From assembly GCF_023051165.1 (NCBI RefSeq), contig NZ_JALKIG010000005.1, positions 1 to 64,000 of the forward strand: a stretch of DNA of 64,000 bases, written 5' to 3'. The position numbers and the translations under genes were made by a program. This stretch comes from Veillonella sp. KGMB01456 (GTDB taxonomy: Bacteria; Bacillota; Negativicutes; Veillonellales; Veillonellaceae). Positions 16,018-22,795 of the stretch are shown here, one piece after another; position 1 is the stretch's first letter, and every line of letters starts with the position of its first letter. The notes under the pieces were generated by a model. The model saw only the letters and a list, made by a program, of their open reading frames with translations. It was not told where the DNA came from and did no database searches.

Positions 16018-16452
16018 TTACAAGAAGAAGTCTTCCATGTTTTCTGATAATTGTTCCATATTATCATCCATGTCTTCCTGGTAAGCCAACCAATGTTCAC
16101 GGTTCCAAATTTCTACGTGATCCCCGATACCGAGTACCATTACTTCTTTTTGAAGTTTGGCAAATTCACGCAGTGTAGCCGGCACCAAAATACGACCTTG
16201 ACGATCGAATTCCAACTCGGTGGCATTGGCAAAAAGTTGACGTTTAAGCCCACGAACACCGGCTTTGTTGTTCGGTTGCTTCATCATCTGCATAGCCTTG
16301 GCGGTAAATACTTCGGTCGTATAAATGGCGAGACAATTATCGTAGCTCTTGGACATAATACAGGTTTCGCCTAATTGTTCGCGTAATTTTGCGGGAATAA
16401 TTAAGCGCCCCTTCGTATCAATGGTATGTGAATATTCACCCATGAACATCAT
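16018..16452 (-). CDS. mraZ: Transcriptional regulator MraZ
   Basis: A 144-aa protein with two SpoVT/AbrB-like half domains: MGEYSHTIDTKGRLIIPAKLRE near the N-terminus (split here as GEYSHTIDTKGR and LIIPAKLRE) and FDRQGRILVPATLRE around 79-93. MraZ forms rings and represses its own dcw promoter by binding direct repeats at about 10-bp spacing. The first of two adjacent ATG codons at 16452 is 7 nt from GGAGG. The repeat-rich upstream region fits autoregulation. Confidence 0.95.
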   Translation of the reverse strand: MMFMGEYSHTIDTKGRLIIPAKLREQLGETCIMSKSYDNCLAIYTTEVFTAKAMQMMKQPNNKAGVRGLKRQLFANATELEFDRQGRILVPATLREFAKLQKEVMVLGIGDHVEIWNREHWLAYQEDMDDNMEQLSENMEDFFL

Positions 16453-16468: not shown

Positions 16469-16533
16469 ACACTTTCCCTATCTTATCTACCACTATATGG
16501 TAAATTCTACCACATTCCCCCACTTAATAACAA
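16469..16533 (-). promoter_or_regulatory. mraZ promoter with overlapping MraZ-type boxes
   Basis: On the minus strand TTGTTA (16528-16533) and TAGAAT (16504-16509) are 18 bp apart. GTGG cores at 16520-16523, 16510-16513 and 16490-16493 are spaced by 10 and 20 bp, and a weaker GTGT at 16469-16472 follows after 21 bp. Two boxes fill the -35/-10 spacer. The 10-bp phasing on one strand matches the known layout of MraZ operators. Confidence 0.65.
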
Positions 16534-16677
16534 TAAAATCTGCAAATTTTAGCGAAATTTAGCAAAAAAATCTTTTAACCAAACATTTAATCGCAAATTG
16601 GCGCTACTACAACGATTTTTTGTTCCCTCTTTTAGTCGATATGTGCGAAGAAATAAGGCTTTAATTTTTGAGCCCCT

Positions 16678-16731
16678 CCACTTCACACCACCACAACTAA
16701 AAAATCATTAACAAACACCACTTTTTGCCAC
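16678..16731 (-). repeat. Phased GTGG motifs upstream of mraZ
   Basis: GTGG occurs on the minus strand at 16678-16681, 16688-16691, 16691-16694, 16718-16721 and 16728-16731. Two pairs are exactly 10 bp apart and the two pairs are 40 bp apart, so they keep the same helical phase as the boxes in the mraZ promoter. No open gene explains them. Confidence 0.5.
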
Positions 16732-16767
16732 CGATTATTTTCAAAACTTTCAGCACCTGATAAAAAT

Positions 16768-16863
16768 CCCCCACTTTTTGGGATACAGCAGCCCCCACTT
16801 TTTGGGATACGGCAGCCTCCACTTTTTGGGATACGGCAGCCTCCACTTTTTGGGATACAGCAG
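16768..16863 (-). repeat. 24-bp tandem repeat, four copies plus a decayed fifth
   Basis: Units start at 16768, 16792, 16816 and 16840, each differing at only one to three bases; a diverged fifth begins at 16864. Every unit contains AAAAAGTGGGGG or AAAAAGTGGAGG on the minus strand, close to the promoter box AAGTGGGGGA of mraZ. A minus-strand frame 16697-16894 (65 codons) reads through it as the octapeptide AVSQKVEA/AVSQKVGA four times. That frame has ATG but no clear ribosome binding site, so coding is doubtful. Confidence 0.85.
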
Positions 16864-17038
16864 GGACCACTATTTGATCCTCTAAAATCTCCATATTCGG
16901 TGCACCGACTCTTTTGAGTACGCCAACTCCTAAAACAGAAAGACTATAGTTTTCAGTATTCCTTTACTTCATACGATTGCAGTCTTTTTTCATCATTTAT
17001 GATAATTATCTATATCAGTCAAAAATAATGCTTGCATC

Positions 17039-17114: not shown

Positions 17115-18551
17115 ATGAGCATAGAGAAAACCCCTCATACGACTCACGGCTCACGCTCTCACGGAACTACACGGTCGCGCAGTCATCAACATCAAATAAA
17201 ACATGATAAACACTGCTCCCGAGGTCCTTCGGAGTTTCAAATTATGTGCGAACCTTTTGTAGCCATTCACCGCAAAATGGAACTCCTCCTTGATTACGGT
17301 CAGTTGCTCATGCAAAACGGCGCTAACACCAATCACATTCAACGTGATATGATGCGCGCCGCCTCTTACATGGGCATTCCACCTCAATTTGTTCATATTC
17401 ACATAACCTATATGACCTTAATGTTGAATATAAATGACGAAAAACACTCGTATACGGTTTTTCGCAAAACACCGTTACACGGTGTGAATATGACCATTCT
17501 TTCAACCCTTTCTAAATTAACCTGGAAGGCCATTGAAAATAATTACAGTCTTGATGAATTCGAAGATCATTTGAAAACGATTAAGGCCGCACCGCCTAAA
17601 TATCCGACGCCCCTACTCGGTCTGGCAGCGGGTCTTGCGTGCGGTGCTTTCAGCATTTTATTCGGTGCCACTTGGTTAGCCGCTTTAGTAACCGTCATCT
17701 GTGCGGTCATCGGTTTTATAACCCGCTACATTTGTCATCACTATCAAATCAACTTTTATTTTGGCATCGTAGCGGCCTCCTTTGCCGCTACTTTTACAGC
17801 CAATCTGATTAATACAACCTTTGACTCAGGCAGCATCGTATATGCTATGGTCAGTTGTACCCTCTTTCTGATTCCCGGCGTTCCTCTGATCAACGCCGTA
17901 GACGATATGATTAATAACCATATTGTATCCGGAATGACCAGGGCCATGCATACGCTTTTAATTGTTAGCAGCATGTCCGTCGGTATCGCCATGGCTCTAT
18001 ATTTCGACCACGTCTCCACCTTTACCCACCTAAATATTACACCGGTTGTAGTAACACCGATTCAGGCCATCGCCGCTGCAATAGGTGCGGTAAGTTTTGC
18101 CACTATTTTTAATACACCGTATCGGCTACTTTGGATAATCGCTATAGGCGGTACCATCAGCGTCATTACACGAAATATACTCATAGTTGATTTCGGTTTT
18201 ACCATCGTTGGCGCCAGTTTTGTGGCATCCGCTATCATTGGTTTGCTAGCCTTAAAAACATATAAATTATTGCGAACGGCGCCTTTGATTTTATCTATTC
18301 CGTCCGTAATTCCGCTGATTCCGGGCGTACTCTTATATCGTTTCTTGTTCGGCTTACTGACTATTAATTCCCTTACACCGGATAACCTGCTATTCGCCTT
18401 GCGCAGCGGGATTACCGGGGTCTTCACAATAATTTGTATTGCCATCGGCGTAGCCATTGCCCATATTATTGCCAGAAGTTATTTGGATCGCAAAAAGGAG
18501 ATTTCTTTGCACAAAGCGCTTCGCGAACGGCAGAAATCGCTCTCGGAATAA
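17115..18551 (+). CDS. Threonine/serine exporter family (ThrE-like) membrane protein
   Basis: A 478-aa protein with the full ThrE layout: an N-terminal DUF1212 domain (about 50-300; HRKMELLLDYGQLLMQNGANTNH at its front, given here only in part: LLDYGQLLMQNGANT) and a C-terminal ThrE_2-like domain, with about ten transmembrane helices from residue 170 on. Family members export threonine and serine; the substrate here is an inference. The first 40 residues are unusual, rich in His, Ser, Arg and Thr (seven His between 8 and 33). AAAGGACTAATTCT precedes the ATG. It is the only plus-strand gene in the first 55 kb and is divergent from mraZ. Confidence 0.85.
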   Translation: MSIEKTPHTTHGSRSHGTTRSRSHQHQIKHDKHCSRGPSEFQIMCEPFVAIHRKMELLLDYGQLLMQNGANTNHIQRDMMRAASYMGIPPQFVHIHITYMTLMLNINDEKHSYTVFRKTPLHGVNMTILSTLSKLTWKAIENNYSLDEFEDHLKTIKAAPPKYPTPLLGLAAGLACGAFSILFGATWLAALVTVICAVIGFITRYICHHYQINFYFGIVAASFAATFTANLINTTFDSGSIVYAMVSCTLFLIPGVPLINAVDDMINNHIVSGMTRAMHTLLIVSSMSVGIAMALYFDHVSTFTHLNITPVVVTPIQAIAAAIGAVSFATIFNTPYRLLWIIAIGGTISVITRNILIVDFGFTIVGASFVASAIIGLLALKTYKLLRTAPLILSIPSVIPLIPGVLLYRFLFGLLTINSLTPDNLLFALRSGITGVFTIICIAIGVAIAHIIARSYLDRKKEISLHKALRERQKSLSE

Positions 18552-19742: not shown

Positions 19743-20828
19743 TTATATCAAAACATCGAAATTTGTCAATTTAATTTGAGGTTTTTTTAGATAATTATTA
19801 TCAAGACTACAATTCAACAAAGTTTCCCATGTGAGCCCTCCGAATTTGTCTGTTTGAGATGATGAAACTAGTCCTGCCGCCAATGCCAAATGCCCTAAAA
19901 TCATAGACGCACTATAGCCGCTCATTCTCAATTCACGCAAGGTTATACTCTGCTGCCTTTTTGATAATCGATAGCCTTCCTCATCAACAATTAACGGCGC
20001 ATGTGCATAGTGCGGTACCTTGGCACCCAGGCACTCATAGAGCCACAATTGACCGGCCACAGCCGGTAATAAATCATAACCGCGCACAATATGGGTAATG
20101 CCCATGGCTATATCATCCATAACAACGGCTAAATTATAGGCGAACATGCCGTCAGCGCGACGAACAATAAAATCATCTTGCGCCGGAATAAGTTCTTCCC
20201 GCTGCGAACCTTGCCAAAAATCAGTAAATTCATACAATCGTGGTTCTACTTTCATGCGCCACGAAGGATTCTTCCGCTCACCTAAAGTCTGCCGTTCCCC
20301 TTCACTCAAGTGGCGGCAACGACCATCATAATGAGCAATTCCTTCATGACCATGCGGAGCCGATGCAATGCTCTGCAAGCGCGCTCGATTACAGTAACAG
20401 GGGTACACAAGCCCCGATTCTTGCCATTTAGCAATCTGTGCCTCATAGAGAGGATACCGTTCACTTTGCCAATACGATTCATGGGGACCGCCTACGCGTG
20501 GGCCTTCATCCCAAGTCAGGCCAAACCATTCTAAATCATCCAGTAAATCTTCCCCATACTGTCTTTTAGCGCGCTGTATGTCGATATCTTCCATGCGCAA
20601 AACAAAGGTACCTTGTTGCTGTTTCACCTGTAGCCACGACAGCATGGCAATCCACAAATTACCTAAATGAAGATGTCCCGTCGGGCTTGGCGCAAATCGT
20701 CCTTTCATAGGACTAATCAGTGTATCACTCATAGAACTAATCAGTGTATCACTCATAGGCCTAATTGTCGTACCATTTGCTGTATCAACATTACCGCCAT
20801 TATCTGTGTCAATTACGATGTCACTCAT
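19743..20828 (-). CDS. gluQ: Glutamyl-Q tRNA(Asp) synthetase
   Basis: A truncated glutamyl-tRNA synthetase paralogue that attaches glutamate to queuosine at position 34 of tRNA(Asp). RFAPSPTGHLHLGN carries the HIGH-class motif (about 44-57), RLSKRQQS is the KMSKS-like loop, and CYC...CRH form the zinc site; no anticodon-binding domain is present. The ATG at 20828 overlaps the stop of the ABC-F gene (ATGA), which favours this start (361 aa). The catalytic core begins only at residue 41; before it MSDTLIS occurs twice in tandem, giving several possible internal starts. Confidence 0.9.
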   Translation of the reverse strand: MSDIVIDTDNGGNVDTANGTTIRPMSDTLISSMSDTLISPMKGRFAPSPTGHLHLGNLWIAMLSWLQVKQQQGTFVLRMEDIDIQRAKRQYGEDLLDDLEWFGLTWDEGPRVGGPHESYWQSERYPLYEAQIAKWQESGLVYPCYCNRARLQSIASAPHGHEGIAHYDGRCRHLSEGERQTLGERKNPSWRMKVEPRLYEFTDFWQGSQREELIPAQDDFIVRRADGMFAYNLAVVMDDIAMGITHIVRGYDLLPAVAGQLWLYECLGAKVPHYAHAPLIVDEEGYRLSKRQQSITLRELRMSGYSASMILGHLALAAGLVSSSQTDKFGGLTWETLLNCSLDNNYLKKPQIKLTNFDVLI

Positions 20829-22795
20829 TGTGCCAATTGCTCCCAAATTTCATAGAGTTCAGCCAATCTTTTATTGGTAGCTTCCATTTGAGCCGCCGTT
20901 TCTGCCATGGCTTCCGCATCTTCCTGTAAAGCGGGATTTTGTATTTGAACTTCGTACATTTTCAGCGTAGCTTCCAAACGGGCAATTTCGGTTTCCGTTT
21001 CTTCCAATTTCTTGGCTTGCATATAGGAGTTTAGCTTTTTATCTCCGGAACCTTCGTTACCACTTGTACTGCCGGTATTTTTAGCTTCATTCGAATCCAC
21101 CCTGTCGGTCGAGTTCGTATCGTCATTATTGTTGCTGTTGCGTTTATTACTGCTCGAACGTTCTTTATTTTGACCACTTTGTTCAGCTGCCAAGGCGGCC
21201 AAATCCTGCTGTTCTTTGAGCTTCGCCTTATAGTAGCTGTAATTGCCAAGGTATTCTTCCACGCCTTCCGGCTCTAACACCAAGGTCCGTTTGGCCACTT
21301 TATCCAAGAAATACCGGTCATGGGACACAACCAGTAATGTGCCGGTAAAGTTCATCAAAGCCTCTTCCACCACTTCGCGCGTCGGAATATCTAAATGGTT
21401 GGTCGGTTCGTCAAGAATTAAGAAATTATTGCCTTGTAAAAACAAAATCAATAAACTTAAGCGAGCCCGTTCACCACCGGACAAATCACGAATTTCCTTG
21501 AAAACGTCATCCCCTTGGAACAAAAACATGCCCAGTACATTACGGGCTTTTTCCTCACTATAGTTAAAATGACTCATAATTTCATCAATCGGCGTCCAAG
21601 CAGGATGTAATTCTTCGTGTTCCTGTGAAAAATACCCCACCGATACACGGCTGCCGATATCGATAAAACCCGCTTCCGGTGTCAATTCACCGGTAATAGC
21701 TTTTAATAAAGTGGATTTTCCGGCGCCGTTCGGCCCGATTAAGGCCACCGCTTCCCCGCGACGAATCATAAAGGACACATCCTCTACAATATCGCGCTCG
21801 CCGTAGGATAAAAATAACTCTTCCACCGTCAGCACTTTATCGGCGCTGAATTCCGCTTTAGGAAATCTAAACTTCAATGTCTGTGAAGTTTCCGGCGCAT
21901 CCAAACGCTCCAAACGATTCAACTGCGACTGGCGGCCTCTGGCCATTTTAGATTTAATCCCGGCGCGGTACTTATCGATATACTCTTCCGTTTTGCGAAT
22001 ATATTCCTGTTGCTTCTCATAGGCGTTTTGCTGCGCCTTATGTTGAGCTTCACGCTGCTCCACATAACGACTGTAATTACCACGATAGCTGGTTGCCTTA
22101 TGATGCTCCAATTCAACAATACGCGTCGTTACACGATCAAGGAAATAACGGTCATGGCTGATAATTAAGATACCGCCGCCGTAAGAGCTCAAATAATTTT
22201 CCAACCATTCCAACATATCCATATCCAAATGGTTAGTCGGTTCATCCAAAAATAAAAAATCAGGGCGCCGAACTAAAGCTTTTGCCAAATTAATACGTGT
22301 TTTTTGCCCACCGGAAAATTCAGACACAGATTTCGTTAAATCTTCATCGGAAAAACCAAGGCCGTAGGCAATGCGGCGACTTTGGGCCTCATAATCATAA
22401 CCACCAAGCCAATCTAAACGGTCCTGAATGCGGGCGAGCTGTTTGAGCAAACTTTCATCATGAGGATTCGTTTCAAGCTTCGCCGATACTTCCTGTAATT
22501 GTTGTTCCCAATATTGCACATCGGCAAAGGCTTTTTGAATTTCAATAGCTAAACTGTCGTCCCCTAAATTGATATCCTGCTGCAAATAACCGATTGTAGT
22601 AGCACTATCTTTGACAACCTGACCTTCATCATATTCTTCAATGCCCAACAGGCATTTCATGAGCGTCGATTTGCCAGCCCCGTTAGGGCCCACCAAGCCG
22701 ACACGCTCACCATGTTTTATTTCAAAGGATACTTTGTTAAACACTTGGCGCACGCCAAATGATTTACTTAATCCTATTACGCGGATTTGTTCCAT
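20825..22795 (-). CDS. ABC-F type ATPase
   Basis: A 656-aa soluble protein with two ATP-binding cassettes and no membrane domain. Walker A is GPNGAGKST at 36-44 and again near 347; the two LSGGE-like signatures (FSGGQKTR, LSGGERARLS) and FLDEPTNHLD/ILDEPTNHLD are present. The inter-domain linker is followed by a C-terminal extension with an Asn/Ser-rich stretch and a coiled coil (about 590-656), as in YdiF/Uup-type members. ABC-F proteins act on the ribosome; whether this one is a housekeeping or antibiotic-protection type cannot be told. GGAGGCTTAGAGG precedes the ATG. Confidence 0.9.
   Translation of the reverse strand: MEQIRVIGLSKSFGVRQVFNKVSFEIKHGERVGLVGPNGAGKSTLMKCLLGIEEYDEGQVVKDSATTIGYLQQDINLGDDSLAIEIQKAFADVQYWEQQLQEVSAKLETNPHDESLLKQLARIQDRLDWLGGYDYEAQSRRIAYGLGFSDEDLTKSVSEFSGGQKTRINLAKALVRRPDFLFLDEPTNHLDMDMLEWLENYLSSYGGGILIISHDRYFLDRVTTRIVELEHHKATSYRGNYSRYVEQREAQHKAQQNAYEKQQEYIRKTEEYIDKYRAGIKSKMARGRQSQLNRLERLDAPETSQTLKFRFPKAEFSADKVLTVEELFLSYGERDIVEDVSFMIRRGEAVALIGPNGAGKSTLLKAITGELTPEAGFIDIGSRVSVGYFSQEHEELHPAWTPIDEIMSHFNYSEEKARNVLGMFLFQGDDVFKEIRDLSGGERARLSLLILFLQGNNFLILDEPTNHLDIPTREVVEEALMNFTGTLLVVSHDRYFLDKVAKRTLVLEPEGVEEYLGNYSYYKAKLKEQQDLAALAAEQSGQNKERSSSNKRNSNNNDDTNSTDRVDSNEAKNTGSTSGNEGSGDKKLNSYMQAKKLEETETEIARLEATLKMYEVQIQNPALQEDAEAMAETAAQMEATNKRLAELYEIWEQLAQ

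Follow-up and report, generated by a model that had tools for sequence, protein, structure and literature searches.

MraZ forms rings, and its known operators are, to our knowledge, single clusters of sites at the promoter; in the accessible parts of the open-access literature, we found no described distal MraZ operator or MraZ loop. Phased auxiliary operators are a feature of looping repressor systems such as LacI, GalR and AraC. In Mollicutes, AAAGTG[T/G] direct repeats have been reported at the mraZ/dcw promoters (PMC8475190, with reference to Eraso 2014 and Fisunov 2016). The mraZ locus analyzed here, which lies in a 64,000-nt stretch of Veillonella DNA (the window), resembles the MraZ-box operators of E. 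coli and Mollicutes in the regulator family and in the ~10-bp direct repeats at the mraZ promoter. It differs from known MraZ operators in a second, phased cluster of candidate sites 12-15 turns upstream and in the register of the proximal operator, which is 0/10/30 rather than 0/10/20. With LacI, GalR and AraC, the locus shares two operators (here as sequence sites), one oligomeric regulator and whole-turn spacing, although MraZ, an AbrB-like ring former, has no relation to these regulators and we infer the loop here from sequence.

The mraZ promoter and the MraZ box of Bacillota

The mraZ gene (16018-16452, minus strand) is the first gene of the dcw cluster and encodes the presumed regulator. 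Its product carries the MraZ domain in two copies (profile match to PF02381 in two stretches, E=3.2e-37), is homologous to the solved MraZ structures 1n0e, 9qlr, 9qlg and 9sx6 (found by sequence only) and is 100% identical to the MraZ of V. ratti. A consensus scan located the likely mraZ promoter, TTGTTA -18- TAGAAT, at 16504-16533 on the minus strand. This promoter is near-invariant in the genus, with 98% identity to V. seminalis over -100 to -36.

Relatives were compared using one genome per species, covering 28 Veillonellaceae, 22 species of sister families in the order and 90 other Bacillota. A model of the box was built without Veillonella, from the mraZ upstream regions of the 90 other Bacillota species. 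A 10-bp GTGG pair is present immediately upstream of mraZ in all 90, mostly as three boxes at 0/10/20, and we therefore take GTGG-N6-GTGG, as a sequence motif, to be the MraZ box of the phylum. The flanks in these 90 species are specific as well (A-rich 5´, T/G and then A-rich 3´), and the resulting context, AAAGTGG, is in line with the motif of Mollicutes.

The proximal operator O1 (16484-16523, minus strand) has GTGG boxes at 16520, 16510 and 16490, and, judged on their flanks alone, these are among the top 1.1% of the window's GTGG sites. Overlapping with the mraZ promoter, O1 is predicted to be the ordinary autorepression site. The 0/10/30 layout was found in 28/28 Veillonellaceae, while exactly that layout occurred in 1/90 other Bacillota. 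We also noted an inverted TGGTA/TACCA around the -10 element, made up of the skipped third slot (TTACCATATA) and its neighbours.

Candidate MraZ sites further upstream of mraZ

The earlier note had counted 13 GTGG cores on the minus (mraZ coding) strand (CCAC on the plus strand), and all were found in place between mraZ and thrE, at 16490, 16510, 16520, 16678, 16688, 16691, 16718, 16728, 16771, 16795, 16819, 16843 and 16867; the spacings of 10, 10, 40 and 24 bp that it described hold as well. No plus-strand GTGG was found in this intergenic region. Dinucleotide shuffling of the 662-bp region (5000 rounds) never gave as many as 13 GTGG (mean 3.6) or three 10-bp GTGG pairs (mean 0.017), nor the observed strand bias. 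When the promoter and a 24-bp tandem array were excluded, five GTGG were left in 190 bp (shuffle mean 1.0, P=0.0018), including two 10-bp pairs (shuffle mean 0.005).

These two pairs define the predicted distal operator O2. The first part, O2a (16678-16694, minus strand), comprises the GTGG pair 16688/16678 and an overlapping GTGG at 16691, and its pair scores in the top 4% for context. The second, O2b (16718-16731, minus strand), consists of the pair 16728/16718 and shares the 10-bp register of O2a, with the outer boxes 50 bp apart. The distal cluster thus contains two 10-bp direct repeats with MraZ-box flanks. The flank context of the distal pairs stood out against other GTGG in the window (P=0.0023), as did that of the 24-bp array boxes (P=0.0025, from copies that are not independent), with boxes 16691, 16728 and 16867 unremarkable when scored singly. 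Distal boxes across Veillonellaceae genera also fit the context model of the 90 Bacillota species (P=2.7e-8).

The array (16771-16876, minus strand, detected by TRF) has five GTGG boxes, four of them AAAAAGTGG, and is unique in the genome. Because it is a tandem repeat, its five cores are not independent observations. Five array boxes are present in this genome, four in V. ratti and one in V. seminalis, with the single V. seminalis box in the position of 16771, the ancestral box of the array. Only this genome and V. ratti showed the expansion, which probably arose recently and in tandem from a single conserved outlying box. The array contains no 10-bp pair, and its 24-bp spacing falls outside the 10-bp register and does not amount to whole turns. 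Taken singly, most of its boxes fit the MraZ box model well. An independent 22-bp array of paired boxes occupies the same place in G004, and the varying number of boxes may be under selection or simply tolerated. Thus, of the earlier proposal that the whole GTGG array could serve as a distant MraZ operator, the distal operator itself is well supported as a set of candidate sites, while the 24-bp array has less support as its core. A second 24-bp tandem repeat (2.5 copies, 20705-20765) was noted within the open frame 19743-20846 on the minus strand.

Across the whole 2.47-Mb genome, GTGG-N6-GTGG occurred at chance level (31 pairs versus 38 for the reversed control), and 3 of the 31 fall within 222 bp upstream of mraZ. 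For the 27 pairs inspected elsewhere, 24 were inside long open frames and three outside (one in a tRNA gene); one further pair, at 18016-18029, lies inside the thrE frame. A genome-wide MraZ regulon defined by GTGG pairs was rejected, as pairs outside mraZ are at chance level and mostly in genes. Separately, an intergenic GTGGTATGTAGTGG pair elsewhere in the genome (G000:C20:23751-23764, L140) resembles the G004 array boxes and is a possible second MraZ target.

The distal pair across Veillonellaceae

A second distant site for the same regulator, the mark of an auxiliary operator, is present as sequence sites in 19/28 Veillonellaceae, where a distal 10-bp GTGG pair was detected in direct (13) or inverted (6) orientation. 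The exact 10-bp pair further upstream of mraZ was found in 0/90 other Bacillota and 0/22 sister-family species. By genus, the pair was present in 4/7 species of the window's genus, 1/1 of genus g3, 8/14 of g4 and 6/6 of g2, the last in the opposite orientation, which argues for a DNA site over an RNA or peptide. The O2a 10-bp pair is kept in V. ratti and V. seminalis and has counterparts in g3, g4 and G004 and an inverted one in g2; O2b is kept in V. seminalis, while one of its boxes is lost in V. ratti. The exact pair is absent in 9/28 Veillonellaceae. In the other three relatives of the window's genus, single outer boxes are found with the near-boxes ATGG and GGGG between them, at ~10-bp steps.

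A scan of 300 class genomes for two pairs at this distance returned the direct layout at mraZ in 13 Veillonellaceae genomes (G000, G002 and G006 among them). Nearly all other double-pair matches in the 300 genomes were scattered elsewhere, and those in G029, G032 and G164 run from the promoter pair into mraZ. Among mraZ loci retrieved by similarity as another, smaller set, we observed two Clostridia metagenome-assembled genomes with a distal GTGG pair besides the promoter boxes, L050 (-330/-320) and L052 (-197/-187, inverted). Distal pairs are therefore not strictly unique to Veillonellaceae, and distal operators may also have arisen elsewhere.

Helical phasing, a possible loop and alternative readings

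O1 and O2 are separated by an AT-rich linker (16524-16677, minus strand) with a box-to-box distance of 158 bp, or ~15 turns. Measured between the last distal and the first promoter box, the spacing in five lineages is 158, 148, 138, 126-127 and 147 bp, and these values agree in phase at 10.5 bp with R=0.954 (P ~0.002 against random distances, or 0.006 with the period scanned), in a test that comprises five lineages only and assumes their independence. Turnover of boxes in the 10-bp register could yield the same spacing steps. Predicted operators in helical phase make looping plausible. A linker bent by phased A-tracts was suggestive in some g4 species only and was rejected for this genome.

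Based on these observations, we hold with moderate confidence that O2 is an auxiliary MraZ operator of the Veillonellaceae, most likely looped to the promoter operator, with both binding and loop inferred. MraZ would bind O1 and also O2, which comprises two 10-bp pairs ~160-210 bp further up plus outlying single boxes. One oligomeric MraZ ring, or two touching rings, would then bridge O1 and O2 to form a short loop, bridging being the most likely outcome because both operators are on the same helix face. The loop would make dcw repression tighter when MraZ is scarce, and the 24-bp array would add weak sites.

The linker also contains a degenerate LexA-like element, CGCACATATCGACT (16634-16647, minus strand), with a counterpart, CGAACATA, in the linker of 20/28 Veillonellaceae relatives (L007-L010, L012, L013, L016-L021, L023-L026, L028-L030 and L032) compared with 3/90 other Bacillota and 0/22 sister-family species. 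LexA/SOS boxes of Bacillota are of the CGAACN4GTTCG type. The likeness to these boxes lies in the presence of CGAACATA both at mraZ and, as an 8-mer alongside the palindrome CGAACGAATGTTCG, in Veillonellaceae lexA promoters; the difference is that the CGAAC-N4-GTTCG palindrome is absent at mraZ, where the second half-site is missing and the single one is degenerate in the window. The half-site sits either in between the two MraZ operators or on the upstream side of the promoter operator, and its distances to both operators also step by whole turns, with weaker statistics than for O1 and O2. A search for the LexA palindrome did not exceed the reversed control, and the half-site pattern gave no recurrent intergenic motif genome-wide. 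The lexA promoters revive the half-site reading only, which we treat as a lead and not a result. Many of the lexA upstream regions (L273-L298) have CGAACGAATGTTCG or CGAATAAATGTTCG boxes and a second asymmetric CGAACAT-type site ~50-60 bp off. It is a long shot that the three sites form a phase-locked complex, in which a MraZ ring would bridge the operators and the LexA-like site in the loop would let DNA damage open or close it.

The best surviving alternative, though an unlikely one, is that MraZ binds the distal cluster and the array without a loop, with the boxes buffering or titrating MraZ or nucleating rings and their number shifting the threshold of repression. This would account for the way in which box number varies through tandem expansions that arose independently in two lineages of the genus (a 24-bp array here and in V. 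ratti, a 22-bp one in G004), for the fit of the array boxes to the box model and for a 24-bp period outside the helical register. However, neither a distal pair in helical phase with the promoter nor a site fixed beside that promoter would be needed for titration.

We consider it improbable that the distal boxes serve another promoter, either that of the divergent thrE (17115-18551, plus strand), which has the intergenic region in common with mraZ, or an upstream dcw promoter. One weak promoter-like match (16734-16763) is consistent with such a role, but about as many matches of this kind arise in shuffled sequence (2 found, 2.2 expected) and the boxes stop more than 240 bp short of thrE. Additionally, the distal boxes are kept in genera with co-directional upstream genes, and in several of these a terminator-like hairpin lies between gene and boxes. 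The upstream neighbour of mraZ, named by eye from open frames in the relatives, varies by genus (divergent thrE, another divergent gene, and co-directional surface-protein-like and aminotransferase-like genes), and O2 therefore follows mraZ and not the neighbour. The earlier note had regarded the lack of a GTGG excess upstream of mraZ in close relatives as evidence against its proposal; the excess recurs in four Veillonellaceae genera with these different upstream genes.

Even less credence is due to the reading that the distal boxes are chance or neutral and the array is ordinary slippage happening to include GTGG. Slippage does produce tandem arrays, and overall sequence conservation of the distal region is modest, its identity to V. 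seminalis (75%) being hardly above that of the linker (71%). Loss of the element points the same way: in G025, O2 and most of the linker have been cleanly lost, while the near relative G027 retains both. The element is therefore dispensable, and this pair of genomes, a natural experiment, provides a ready comparison. Chance is nevertheless contradicted by the shuffle tests, the restriction to mraZ within the genome, the lineage restriction and the context match to an independent box model. Finally, the array has next to no likelihood of encoding a small repeat peptide (a 65-aa frame at 16697-16894, minus strand, open and with a repeat of 24, divisible by 3) or a structured RNA, given that the peptide has no family match and V. 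ratti lacks an ATG in the corresponding position, that V. seminalis has no array and that the sole Rfam match is far under its gathering score; Rfam, promoter and terminator scans revealed no rival element.

MraZ is present across most bacteria, and the use that its rings make of DNA repeats is not yet settled. If looping through an auxiliary operator is correct, a distant phased operator would give MraZ a way of bridging separate sites that is invisible in single-cluster operators, and the very conserved operon would have undergone a family-specific rewiring. The distal, phased candidate operator suggests that a DNA loop may control the division genes in Veillonellaceae.
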